Part shown: piece by piece, positions 14,899 to 24,361 of the stretch
How positions within the stretch are numbered: the first letter of the stretch is position 1
Layout: each line of letters opens with the position of its first letter
Source of the DNA: an uncultured Bacilli bacterium
GTDB lineage: Bacteria; Bacillota_I; Bacilli_A; RF39; UBA660
Assembly: GCA_949439935.1 (NCBI GenBank)
Contig: CASRZA010000009.1
Location: 1-33,363 of the forward strand
Reading direction: 5' to 3'
Length of the DNA stretch: 33,363 nucleotides
Notes under the pieces: model-generated
The model's input: only the letters and a program-made list of their open reading frames with translations
Told to the model about the DNA's origin: nothing
Database searches by the model: none
Translations under genes and position numbers: made by a program

Positions 14899-15420
14899 TC
14901 AAACTCCAAAAATTAAATAAACTACGATAAAACTCATGATGATGCCGACACAATCTGCAAAAAGCCCAGCCTTTAAAGCATATCTTATCTTCTTGATGCC
15001 GACACTTCCAAAATAGAGAGTTATCACATAAAAAGTGGTATCGGTACTTCCTTGCAGTACGCTCGCAAAACGCCCTACAAAAGAATCTGTTCCAAAATTT
15101 TGAAAGATATCGGTCATGATAACTTGACTGGCCGAACCACTTATAGGGCGGAGTAACGCCATAGGAAATATACTGACGGGCATGTTCGGTCCTAAGGCGT
15201 CGGCAACTGCACCGAAGATGCTGTCGAGGAAACCACTATGTAAGAAGATATTGACGGCGAAAACCATCGCCACCGTAAAAGGAAATATGCTTATTGCACT
15301 ATCGATACCCTCCTTCGCACCTTTTATAAAAGAAGAATAAATGTCGACCTTTTTAATCATACCATATAATATGATACCTATGATCATCAAAGGAATTAAA
15401 AGTAAAGAAAAAGTCGTCAA
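14899..15420 (-). CDS. spmB: Spore maturation protein B
   Basis: About 174 residues, hydrophobic, with the nucleoside-recognition-domain (Gate) layout and the typical PMALLRPISGSASQ element. In Bacillus, spmA and spmB act in spore core dehydration. Start choice: the GTG at 15429 lies within the ribosome binding site (AGAGGTGG), so the TTG at 15420 (protein MTTFSLLLIPL) has better spacing. It lies 144 bases after spmA; the gap holds a possible promoter and short ORF. Confidence 0.9.
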   Translation of the reverse strand: MTTFSLLLIPLMIIGIILYGMIKKVDIYSSFIKGAKEGIDSAISIFPFTVAMVFAVNIFLHSGFLDSIFGAVADALGPNMPVSIFPMALLRPISGSASQVIMTDIFQNFGTDSFVGRFASVLQGSTDTTFYVITLYFGSVGIKKIRYALKAGLFADCVGIIMSFIVVYLIFGV

Positions 15421-15441
15421 GCAAACCACCTCTACATAAGT

Positions 15442-15516
15442 TTATTCTCGACTTATAACAAAAGACCAATTATAAGAGTCTTTCTTAAAACAAAAGATAT
15501 TGTCTTCTAAAGACAT
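15442..15516 (-). CDS. Possible 24-residue ORF between spmA and spmB
   Basis: An ATG frame beginning MSLEDNIFCFKKD, following GGTGG and a promoter-like pair. The 3' half overlaps a weak hairpin (AAAGAC/GTCTTT). It could be a small peptide, a leader or chance. There is no homology evidence. Confidence 0.25.
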   Translation of the reverse strand: MSLEDNIFCFKKDSYNWSFVISRE

Positions 15517-15529
15517 CGTTGTTACCACC

Positions 15530-15558
15530 ACTATAATATAACTCTCTTAAGTTTTCAA
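15530..15558 (-). promoter_or_regulatory. Possible internal promoter ahead of spmB
   Basis: TTGAAA (15553-15558), 17-base spacer, TATAGT (15530-15535), just after the spmA stop codon. Confidence 0.45.
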
Positions 15559-15564
15559 ATAAAT

Positions 15565-16149
15565 CTATTTATTCCTGTTCTTTTTTCTAATTAAATAATC
15601 GAGAGAAATACCCGCGACCGTCGAGCAAAGCGTCGCCGCCAAAGCCGCGGATATAATCTCGCCTGGATTAGCACTTCCATACATGGCGCGAAGGCTTATT
15701 ATAGCTGTCGGTATGAGAGTGACTCCCGAAGTATTTAAAACTAGAAAAGTTATCATCGCAGGACTCGCAGTATCCTTCTTGTCGTTTATTTCTTGCAACT
15801 TTTCCATCGCTTTCAAACCGAAAGGAGTCGCAGCACTTCCCAGACCGACCATGTTAACTATTATATTAGAAGCGATAAGCCCTAATGACTCGTGCCCTTC
15901 TGGAATACTCGGAAATAATCTTTTTAAAACGAATGAAAACTTATAGGCGATTTTAGAAAGAAGTCCAGAATCGCTCGCGATCTGCATGAGGCCCATCCAT
16001 AACACTATGACGGGAAACATCGTAGCAAACATCTCTAGACTCTGTGCCGAGCTTTTCAATACTTCGTCGTTTACCAAAGATAGATTTCCACTTATAAAAC
16101 TATAAAATATTCCAACTAATATCAAAATACCCCAAATTAGACTTACCAT
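15565..16149 (-). CDS. spmA: Spore maturation protein A
   Basis: 194 residues with several membrane helices and the SpmA/nucleoside-recognition features ASNIIVNMVGLGSAATPFGL and TFLVLNTSGVTLIPTAIIS. Its 5' end overlaps the carboxypeptidase gene by seven bases, as expected for the dacB-spmA-spmB cluster of spore formers. The C-terminus is a short basic tail (RKKNRNK). Confidence 0.92.
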   Translation of the reverse strand: MVSLIWGILILVGIFYSFISGNLSLVNDEVLKSSAQSLEMFATMFPVIVLWMGLMQIASDSGLLSKIAYKFSFVLKRLFPSIPEGHESLGLIASNIIVNMVGLGSAATPFGLKAMEKLQEINDKKDTASPAMITFLVLNTSGVTLIPTAIISLRAMYGSANPGEIISAALAATLCSTVAGISLDYLIRKKNRNK

Positions 16150-17204
16150 TTAAAACGTTCCTTTATCTTTTCCCAGAAAGTCTTCGGTTTACCTAACTTC
16201 TCGGCATATATATTTACTTTTTTATATTCTTTACCATCCAAAGTGATACTGAGAGTTCCGATTATCTTAGTCCCATACCACTCTTCCCCGTCATCTTTGT
16301 AGAGTTCGACTTCTCTTTTCAACTTCTTTTTTTCATCTTTCTTTAAAAGCATCGAAAAATCGGACGTCGTGTAAACCTTATAACCGTTTTTATACTTTAT
16401 CTCGAGATTATCCTTATCTATCAGAAGATATTTCTTATACATCTCAAAATACTTTTCATATAGATTCTTATGAGTATCGAATCTTTCTCGATCGACAAAC
16501 GTCGCGATCACTAAATTTTTATCATCTTTCGAAGCAGCCGATACAAAAGTATGTTTTGCCCTAGTCGTATAGCCTATTTTACCACCCGTCGCATACTTAT
16601 AATCTGTAATTAACCTATTTTTATTAAACCATTCATAAGTGCCAAAGTTAGATTTACTCACATATTTAGTTACGCCAGAGATCTTTCTAAATTCTTCGTT
16701 ATTCATGGCTTCTCTCATCAAAAGACACATGTCATAGACCGTACTCCTATTCTCATTTTCTTCGTCTAAGCCGTGTGGATTAGAAAATGTCGTCTCGTGC
16801 ATGCCGATCATCAATGCTGTATCGTTCATAAGTTTTACGAACCCCTCTACACTTCCCGCGGTGTATTTAGCAAGGACGAGTGCAGCATCGTTTCCACTTC
16901 TAAGCATGAGTCCATAGAGCAGATCCTCGACAGTGAATTTTTCCCCTGGCTTCAGATATATAGAACTTCCATATGCTTTCAATATTTCCTCTCCTGCGAC
17001 GACTTCCTCTTTTAAATCTACGTTATTCAAAACTACTAAAGCAGTCATTATCTTAGTAGTAGAAGCGATCAAATATCTAGAATCCGCATCGTGACTATAG
17101 AGAACTCTTCCACTGTCCGCATCCATCACGACCGCGGCACTATAAGCGAATACAGTTTCTATCGATAAGATAATACAAGCACAAAAAAATATCACTTTCT
17201 TCAT
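16143..17204 (-). CDS. dacB: D-alanyl-D-alanine carboxypeptidase (S11), sporulation DacB/DacF type
   Basis: 354 residues from the ATG at 17204. A signal peptide (KKVIFFCACIILSIETVFAY) is followed by the penicillin-binding motifs STTK (48-51), SGN (103-105) and KIG (209-211, where KTG is commonest). A C-terminal beta domain and a basic end follow. It trims stem peptides of peptidoglycan. The position before spmA-spmB points to the spore cortex, as for DacB of Bacillus. An in-frame GTG at 17213 is less likely because it overlaps the weak TAGTGA binding site. CATATAAT lies about 15 bases ahead and could be a sigma-E-type -10, but no matching -35 is convincing. Confidence 0.88.
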   Translation of the reverse strand: MKKVIFFCACIILSIETVFAYSAAVVMDADSGRVLYSHDADSRYLIASTTKIMTALVVLNNVDLKEEVVAGEEILKAYGSSIYLKPGEKFTVEDLLYGLMLRSGNDAALVLAKYTAGSVEGFVKLMNDTALMIGMHETTFSNPHGLDEENENRSTVYDMCLLMREAMNNEEFRKISGVTKYVSKSNFGTYEWFNKNRLITDYKYATGGKIGYTTRAKHTFVSAASKDDKNLVIATFVDRERFDTHKNLYEKYFEMYKKYLLIDKDNLEIKYKNGYKVYTTSDFSMLLKKDEKKKLKREVELYKDDGEEWYGTKIIGTLSITLDGKEYKKVNIYAEKLGKPKTFWEKIKERFKW

Positions 17205-17279
17205 AATTATCACTATTAGATTATATGAAAGAGATGATATTTTTATTTTCTAATTTTTTAATGATAGTAGACATTTAAT

Positions 17280-22152: not shown

Positions 22153-22257
22153 TCAATTTGCCTTCATAAAAGTAACTATTATTATAGTTGCGATCAATCC
22201 TATGATCGCCAATATAGCTATTATTTCTGATAACGTAATTCCCTTTTTATCGAACAT
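22153..22257 (-). CDS. 34-residue prepilin-like membrane peptide
   Basis: A short frame with AAAAAGGAG eight bases before its ATG, starting 19 bases after the stop of the thioredoxin-like gene. The peptide begins MFDKKGITLSEII. This matches a class III (prepilin) leader: a short basic leader ending in Gly6, cleavage, a hydrophobic +1 residue and Glu at +5, then one long hydrophobic helix. It ends MKAN right after the helix, so the globular domain of ordinary pilins is missing. No continuation is seen in other frames before the downstream inverted repeat. It may be a minimal pilin-like subunit, a peptide signal, or the truncated end of a lost pilin gene. Confidence 0.65.
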   Translation of the reverse strand: MFDKKGITLSEIIAILAIIGLIATIIIVTFMKAN

Positions 22258-22276
22258 GATCTTTTCTCCTTTTTGC

Positions 22277-22996
22277 TTAACAATGCTCGTCACACACTGC
22301 CGTTTCAGTCTTCTTTATCATATCTTTAAACATATCTTTTAAATTTTCAGCTTGTTTGTCAGTCAGCTCATCGAACGCGGTTTGACCGTCTTCAAGCTTT
22401 ACAGGACTCGTCACTGCGTGCTCGACTCGCCCATCCTTTACGGCGACGACTAATGGAAGATACATCCGTTTTTCTTCCGTCTTATAAACTTTATCTGTAC
22501 TGTTATCCTTGATCGTATAATCGTCTAAATATTCATCCAAAATTTCTAAAATCCTATAGTATTCATCGCTTGCATCCACAGTTTTGACGGCCTTACCATC
22601 TTTAACTTCGAACACATCCCTCTTATTCGTCATATCTACGTATGAGATACTATCTAAATATGAACTTTCTACTGTATCCAACAAGGTGGGTAGCATTCCC
22701 CTACACCAAGGACAATTTGGAAAGCCGAAATAGATTAAACCTGTGCCCTTTTCTAAAAACTCTACAGCCTTATTTAAATCGACATATTTTACTTTGTTCG
22801 TCTCACTTATATCTAGAGTTTGATAGACATTATCCCCCGAAGCTTTCTCGCCGTTTAAAGCTTCGTACTCTCGTTTGAATTTTAAAGCGTCACTCTCGCC
22901 TGTTTCTGACTTTCTTGTCGCGAAGAAAATGCCTACTCCGACGATCGCAAGTATAAGGACTGCTATTACTATTGTCGTAACTTTTTTCTTATCCAC
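22277..22996 (-). CDS. Membrane-anchored thioredoxin-like protein
   Basis: 239 residues: an N-terminal membrane anchor (about 6-26), a linker, then a thioredoxin-like fold with CPWC at residues 95-98 in FPNCPWCRGMLP. The protein ends VCDEHC, giving a second Cys pair near the C-terminus. The catalytic domain is predicted to face outside. It resembles the thioredoxin-like bacteriocin-accessory group, but the substrate is unknown. It begins with GTG, preceded by GGAGGTG that lies inside the end of frr, so the two are probably translationally linked. Confidence 0.85.
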   Translation of the reverse strand: MDKKKVTTIVIAVLILAIVGVGIFFATRKSETGESDALKFKREYEALNGEKASGDNVYQTLDISETNKVKYVDLNKAVEFLEKGTGLIYFGFPNCPWCRGMLPTLLDTVESSYLDSISYVDMTNKRDVFEVKDGKAVKTVDASDEYYRILEILDEYLDDYTIKDNSTDKVYKTEEKRMYLPLVVAVKDGRVEHAVTSPVKLEDGQTAFDELTDKQAENLKDMFKDMIKKTETAVCDEHC

Positions 22997-22999
22997 GTA

Positions 23000-23539
23000 T
23001 TACACCTCCATGAGTTCCTTTTCTTTATCGCGAATTTTATCCTCTACGAGTTTATTATATTTGTTGATAAGTTCTTGTATGTCTTCCAAGAGACCCTTTT
23101 CTTGATCTTCTGGCAACTCATCTGCTTTAACCTTATTGTTTCCATCTTGTCTTATATTTCTAAGAGCCACCTTGGCGTCTTCGCCCATGGCTTTTGCTTG
23201 CTTTACATATTCTTTTCTTCTATCTTCTGTAAGTTCAGGCAAAGTTAATATGATCATCTCGCCATTGTTAGTAGGATTTATGCCCAAATTAGCTTCTTGA
23301 ATAGCACGTTCTATATCTTTAAGTGTACCTCTATCGAACGGTTTAACAAAAAGTTGTCTCGCTTCTGGTACAGTAATGTTTGCGACACTCTGTATCGGCG
23401 TTGGAGTTCCATAGTAATCTACGACGACGTTTGCTAGCATGTTCGGATTCGCTCTTCCTGCCCTTACGGTCGTCAGTCTCTTATCCAAAGTTTCCATAGC
23501 CTCTTCCATCTTAAACTCTATTTCATCTAAATAATTCAT
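23000..23539 (-). CDS. frr: Ribosome recycling factor
   Basis: 179 residues, slightly shorter than the usual 185. Typical sequence throughout: DKRLTTVRAGRANPNMLANV, YYGTPTPIQSVANITVPEAR, then NPTNNGEMIILTLPELTEDRR and the final long helix DKIRDKEKELMEV. It splits post-termination ribosomes together with EF-G. pyrH, the usual neighbour, is not present, and cdsA lies about 21 kb away, so the classic pyrH-frr-uppS-cdsA block is broken up. Confidence 0.97.
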   Translation of the reverse strand: MNYLDEIEFKMEEAMETLDKRLTTVRAGRANPNMLANVVVDYYGTPTPIQSVANITVPEARQLFVKPFDRGTLKDIERAIQEANLGINPTNNGEMIILTLPELTEDRRKEYVKQAKAMGEDAKVALRNIRQDGNNKVKADELPEDQEKGLLEDIQELINKYNKLVEDKIRDKEKELMEV

Positions 23540-23612
23540 ATCTCAAAAATTCACCTTTTCCTTATTAACATTATAATAGAAAACCTTCTACAGAGTCAAT
23601 AATAAACCAGAA

Positions 23613-23906: not shown

Positions 23907-24335
23907 CTAAAGACACTCTACACAAGTATCGTTCAAGCATCTTATCGAACAAACACAGTCTAGGCTGATCGTAAAGAAGCTGTTCGTACTTACATAAGGA
24001 TATAATCCTGTATCTTCATTATTAGGCGCTAATACCCTGAAAGTAGCAGCATTTCCATCTAGTTTTTCTATTCTAAATACGCTAGAACACTCTGCTGGAT
24101 TTGTACAGTTTACGATGTCCTTGCTTATAGGCATAGAGATCGGAGTCTGGTTACCAGCACAACAAGTATAGATCGTTATAGGTCTTGTATTGCATACACA
24201 GCAAGTAGTTCCACAACCGAGCACTGGTCTGTCACATGAATCTAAGCAGCTTTCAGGACTCTCAGCATTTTGCTGTAAAATCAAGATGACTTCTAATATT
24301 TCTCTGATGCCATTACATTCATTATTGTTAGACAT
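23907..24335 (-). CDS. Spore coat protein, CotY/CotZ family
   Basis: 142 residues from the chosen start, very rich in Cys (CGTTCCVCNTR, YTCCAG, LDCVCSIRCLNDTCVECL), as in the CotY/CotZ outer-coat and exosporium proteins that assemble into disulfide-linked arrays. The N-terminal NECNGIREILEVILILQQNA block is typical. The start at 24335 (MSNNNECNG) is favoured because AAAGGGTG lies six bases before it; an in-frame ATG at 24359 lacks one. It is monocistronic with a strong terminator. CotY and CotZ cannot be told apart from this sequence alone. Confidence 0.88.
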   Translation of the reverse strand: MSNNNECNGIREILEVILILQQNAESPESCLDSCDRPVLGCGTTCCVCNTRPITIYTCCAGNQTPISMPISKDIVNCTNPAECSSVFRIEKLDGNAATFRVLAPNNEDTGLYPYVSTNSFFTISLDCVCSIRCLNDTCVECL

Positions 24336-24361
24336 AATATTCACCCTTTCATTATTCATTA

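Follow-up and report, generated by a model that had tools for sequence, protein, structure and literature searches.

In gonococci, the N-terminal domain of the pilin PilE arises by S-pilin cleavage as a piece of 38 residues, produced by proteolysis of the full pilin, and such N-terminal pieces can be active although the head is missing (PMC4877100). Competence for transformation is kept with pieces of at least 38 residues and lost when the stop lies at residue 34 or earlier (PMC4877100). In a current model of filament assembly, the platform clamps helix 1 in the segment directly outside the membrane (PMC10191384). In Haloferax, the hydrophobic domain of the pilins itself has a regulatory role on motility (PMC4371748). 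Small pilins have been described in two further systems. Geobacter PilA-N, or geopilin domain 1, is a stick without head of about 60 residues or more, with the head protein encoded next door. The Flp/Tad pilins are very small proteins of about 60 aa, nearly all helix, with Tyr at +6.

An ORF of 34 codons followed by a stop (translation MFDKKGITLSEIIAILAIIGLIATIIIVTFMKAN) was found on the minus strand of the analyzed window, a stretch of 33,363 nucleotides that constitutes contig 9 of a draft genome (1.43 Mb, 91% complete). The peptide reads MFDKKG followed by ITLSEIIAILAIIGLIATIIIVTFMKAN and possesses the features of a class III signal, namely a basic leader, Gly at -1, Glu at +5 and an uncharged, hydrophobic helix. 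The stop follows mature residue 28, and the C-terminal half of helix 1 and the head domain of a prepilin are absent. The best explanation, to which we assign a probability of about 0.43, is a translatable orphan prepilin module, a membrane helix that would be processable by PilD and possibly modulates pilus assembly. The features of the locus are listed in Table 1.

Table 1. Features of the 34-codon ORF and its surroundings (positions in the window).
Feature	Position	Strand	Basis
Orphan prepilin leader and helix, 34-codon ORF with stop	22153..22257	-	Sequence, N_methyl match, prepilin N-terminus HMM
Class III leader (MFDKKG) with a predicted cut after Gly6	22240..22257	-	Sequence; N_methyl match of residues 2-26
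Predicted mature 28-residue helix, Glu at +5	22156..22239	-	Sequence comparison, HMM
Shine-Dalgarno AGGAG, 8 nt 5' of ATG	22266..22270	-	Sequence
Membrane-anchored thioredoxin-like protein (trx; CPWC, C-terminal CDEHC), just upstream of the peptide ORF	22277..22996	-	TM helix and CPWC
Gene for the ribosome recycling factor (frr), which would open the likely transcript	23000..23539	-	Homologues and synteny
Promoter-like site 5' of frr, TTGACT-18-TATAAT, 11/12	23570..23599	-	Consensus match only
Perfect 13-bp inverted repeat, 7-nt loop	22110..22142		Fold z -2.8; starts 10 nt 3' of the stop, before the ABC transporter genes

An earlier note on this DNA had described a clear ribosome binding site, a class III leader with Glu at +5, and a hydrophobic helix that stops without a globular domain, directly downstream of a membrane thioredoxin-like protein. 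All of this agrees with our analysis: AGGAG precedes the ATG on the minus strand, leader and helix are recognized by the N_methyl match and the HMM as well as in the sequence, no body follows the stop, and the upstream gene encodes a TM helix and CPWC. The ATG lies 19 nt 3' of the stop of the thioredoxin-like gene, on the same strand as frr and trx. An alternative 46-aa form starting from GTG at 22293 lacks a Shine-Dalgarno sequence and overlaps trx, and the ATG at 22257 is therefore preferred. The synonymous codon score of the ORF is 1.6 bits, compared with 2.0 ± 2.3 in-frame and -2.3 ± 2.8 out of frame for the genes of the window. The codon use is gene-like, yet the score is not decisive and cannot exclude non-coding sequence. 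Selection on the peptide cannot be demonstrated because no second species among those sampled shows it.

Residues 2-26 of the peptide match the Pfam family N_methyl (PF07963) at 19.3 bits, slightly short of the curated cut-off of 21.2 (E 8e-4, whole library). This is the independent figure, since an HMM of prepilin N-termini, which scores the peptide at 41.2 bits, was built from 41 sequences of relatives and the own genome, part of them found by using the peptide. The next best of the 313 short ORFs in the window reaches 4.8 bits with this HMM, and the maximum over 63,978 ORFs from 150 dinucleotide shuffles (5 Mb) is 10.9 bits. The best PDB matches, 9egp and 7tgg, are chains of Geobacter geopilin domain 1, with KKG[FI]TL.E and AIIG[IL] in common. 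PHROG 10597, a phage family of unknown function with 59 positions, is longer than the peptide and matches its residues 1-29 with the first 29 positions (E 1.2e-4); the same model also matches ordinary pilins. Judged from these comparisons, the peptide is truly pilin-derived and no chance frame. An unrelated hydrophobic peptide, for example a membrane peptide like the type I toxins, would likewise be small, intergenic and made of one helix, with a strong inverted repeat nearby, and a weak holin match (E 0.17) points in this direction. However, the similarity to pilins exceeds what chance would produce, and one weak promoter-like match on the plus strand (22158-22185), which could give an antisense RNA, is no better than those in shuffles; such an origin is quite improbable.

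The peptide resembles the gonococcal PilE domain as a leader plus N-terminal helix without head, with Glu5 and a PilD-type site, but is shorter (28 residues) and has its own gene. With Geobacter PilA-N it shares the leader-helix pattern and the stick without head; no head-protein gene adjoins the ORF, whose next gene encodes an ABC transporter. Its resemblance to Flp/Tad pilins is in size and helix content, and the genome possesses a Tad-type ATPase (L087). Unlike these pilins, the peptide has Glu-Ile instead of Glu-Tyr at +5/+6 and a helix of the PilA/ComGC type.

A prepilin peptidase, which the earlier note had suggested to look for, is encoded in the genome (L076:4234-4995) and has both A24 domains. 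Also found were a PilB-type ATPase of full length and the second, Tad-like ATPase, and the genome thus encodes both the processing and the assembly enzyme expected for a prepilin. It contains 11 N_methyl matches, nine of them over the Pfam cut-off, and all except the peptide lie in frames of at least 138 codons. No pilus or other pilin genes stand beside the peptide ORF, the neighbours being frr, trx and ABC transporter genes.

The same note had considered a minimal pilin-like subunit or a secreted signal. A structural subunit could enter a type IV filament by itself or together with full-length pilins, as pilin helices form the filament core and the heads of Geobacter and Flp pilins are very small or separate (PMC10191384, PMC5174107, PMC3244431). 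This role is improbable because the 28 residues stop at the membrane edge, and the part of helix 1 below the head that the model proposes to be gripped by the platform (PMC10191384) is lacking. The helix is also below the gonococcal minimum, which makes a filament subunit as well as a secreted signal unlikely; truncations at or before residue 34 fail there, although transformation was the readout. The pilus genes are not near, and short homologues are absent among the matches listed, which leaves the subunit without comparative support. A secreted peptide signal has none either and has been put forward in the earlier note only. Apart from the presence of the machinery, nothing supports either role. 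Class III leaders are cut before the helix, which keeps the hydrophobic helix in the membrane, and no exporter or receptor is specifically linked to the ORF; a signal is hardly credible.

The region 3' of the stop does not encode a pilin body in any frame (the best score, 36, does not reach the mean of 39.6 for shuffles), and no trace of a frameshift was found downstream of the ORF. The distance from the peptide ATG to the start of the ABC transporter gene is 340 nt. A pilin of the size typical for the family would not fit here, since complete prepilins in the fetched loci of relatives have at least 94 aa, with a median of 151. Two further loci (L138 and L137) encode complete pilin frames of 79 and 80 aa within pilus operons, more than twice the length of the peptide. 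The inverted repeat behind the stop is not followed by a T-run on the minus strand, and the terminator scan reports it for the plus strand only. Either a role as the end of the frr-trx-peptide transcript or one for the ABC operon is conceivable. A dispersed operator was considered and rejected, as the repeat is single-copy in the genome.

Conserved short homologues, which the earlier note had also suggested to look for, did not appear among the matches listed. Among the matches listed, no short free-standing homologue was found in eight congeners, where all matches lie in frames of at least 109 aa, nor in 57 family genomes and 394 class genomes; the matches listed reach about E 0.009 and E 5e-5 (family and class) and E 0.2 (congeners), and weak or strongly diverged short relatives could be missed. 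The short-frame matches inspected in family (58 genomes) and class (395 genomes) end at contig edges or belong to frameshifted pilin genes. Besides the peptide, the interior short frames among the matches listed are solely frameshifted pilins with visible bodies. Two such prepilin genes (L132:1745-1864 and L133:1459-1584) possess leader-helix frames of 39 and 41 aa that end in a stop like the peptide, but their bodies go on in another frame, and none does so behind the peptide. These frameshifts are due to mutation or assembly error. Searches for related loci with a 53-aa frame gave none in viral or genome contigs, and those with trx gave none in genome contigs. A tblastn search of phages and plasmids yielded no matches, probably owing to masking of the helix by the low-complexity filter, and does not speak for an absence there.

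The gene order 3' of frr was compared in six congeners in which frr was located (L080-L085). A related ABC transporter gene follows frr in L080, L082 and L083, with a TtcA/TilS-like gene intervening in L080. In L081, frr is followed by trx and then by a related ABC ATPase gene, and in L084 and L085 the order diverges further. Neither a pilin nor a pilin fragment was found 3' of frr in any of the six. The earlier note had named a full-length pilin at this site in relatives as the observation that would speak against it; this objection failed in the six congeners, and the peptide appears to be lineage-specific, limited to one species as far as sampled.

It is quite possible that the ORF is a non-functional remnant, the beginning of a pilin gene that was either inserted or left behind between the frr-trx and ABC transporter genes and whose body was deleted; it may still be translated. 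The limitation to one species, at a spot variable among congeners, favours this, and it is consistent with the broken pilin genes with short N-terminal frames in the class (frameshifted L132 and L133) and with the numerous and variable pilin genes of these genomes. On the other hand, no body is detectable in any frame, unlike in L132 and L133, and the leader, Glu5, helix, start and Shine-Dalgarno sequence are intact though no close donor is seen in the genome. No recent donor was found in its own pilin loci (best 82% over 33 nt), so that a fresh copy does not simply account for the intact motif.

The intact start, AGGAG, leader, Glu5 and helix, together with the missing body and close donor, favour the orphan prepilin module. 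The frr-trx transcript would read on into the 34-codon gene, and the class III signal would take the peptide into the membrane, where the prepilin peptidase of the genome could, judged by the motif, cut it after Gly6. The predicted product is a transmembrane helix of 28 residues that retains Glu5 of pilins and the core motif AIIG. As it lacks an outer portion that the assembly platform could grip, it would stay in the membrane and form no filament. Its function, if any, is most likely that of a competitor or assembly modulator acting on the pilus machinery or the full-length pilins; the role of the hydrophobic domain in Haloferax offers a precedent. The peptide probably derives from the 5' end of a pilin gene and, as far as sampled, arose solely in the lineage of this species. 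The occurrence in one species, the absence in the sampled congeners and the lack of an adjoining pilus gene speak against this module, and its mature length, within the inactive gonococcal range (≤34), counts against a function. The evidence for an orphan peptide with a role versus an old remnant is nearly balanced.

A dedicated gene for a head-less pilin helix of 28 residues, regulating or capping type IV filament assembly within the membrane, is unlikely. Such a gene would correspond to the N-terminal pilin piece of gonococci, but as a genetic unit standing on its own. If translated and processed, the peptide would be far shorter than the Flp and Geobacter pilins considered (about 60 aa) and would offer a direct test of a pilin helix without head. 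Annotation that skips ORFs of such size would miss such genes. The weight of the finding is modest, since it comes from one genome only.

Several other observations were made. The C-terminal Cys-x-x-x-Cys tail of the thioredoxin-like protein (CDEHC, CDNHC, CDESC) is present in some homologues and missing in others (L037, L038 and L044 compared), and it is possibly a second redox pair besides CPWC. Just 3' of frr in L084 (congener G007), a 44-aa frame, MKKVVIALILVLCALGIVFVVHNNAKGEEESSTSSAICTESGEC, has a trx-like membrane helix and the CxxxC tail and looks like a trx gene with the middle missing. Two clusters of prepilins, minor and very large ones (up to 1459 aa), run in parallel on contigs 29 and 42 of the genome (L074 and L075); a frame beginning M[EK]K[KD]GFIATSLIYSFF precedes each cluster. 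A 495-aa frame adjoining the contig end (31839-33326) has no Pfam match, and its WWRIIRFNGDGTVRMQYDG stretch presumably resembles domains that long prepilins carry in such bacteria. In the window (23907-24359 and 14899-17213), a Pfam match points to a CotZ-like spore coat protein, and frames resemble, by reading only, spore maturation proteins and a D-Ala-D-Ala carboxypeptidase; the genome has about 1.4 Mb.
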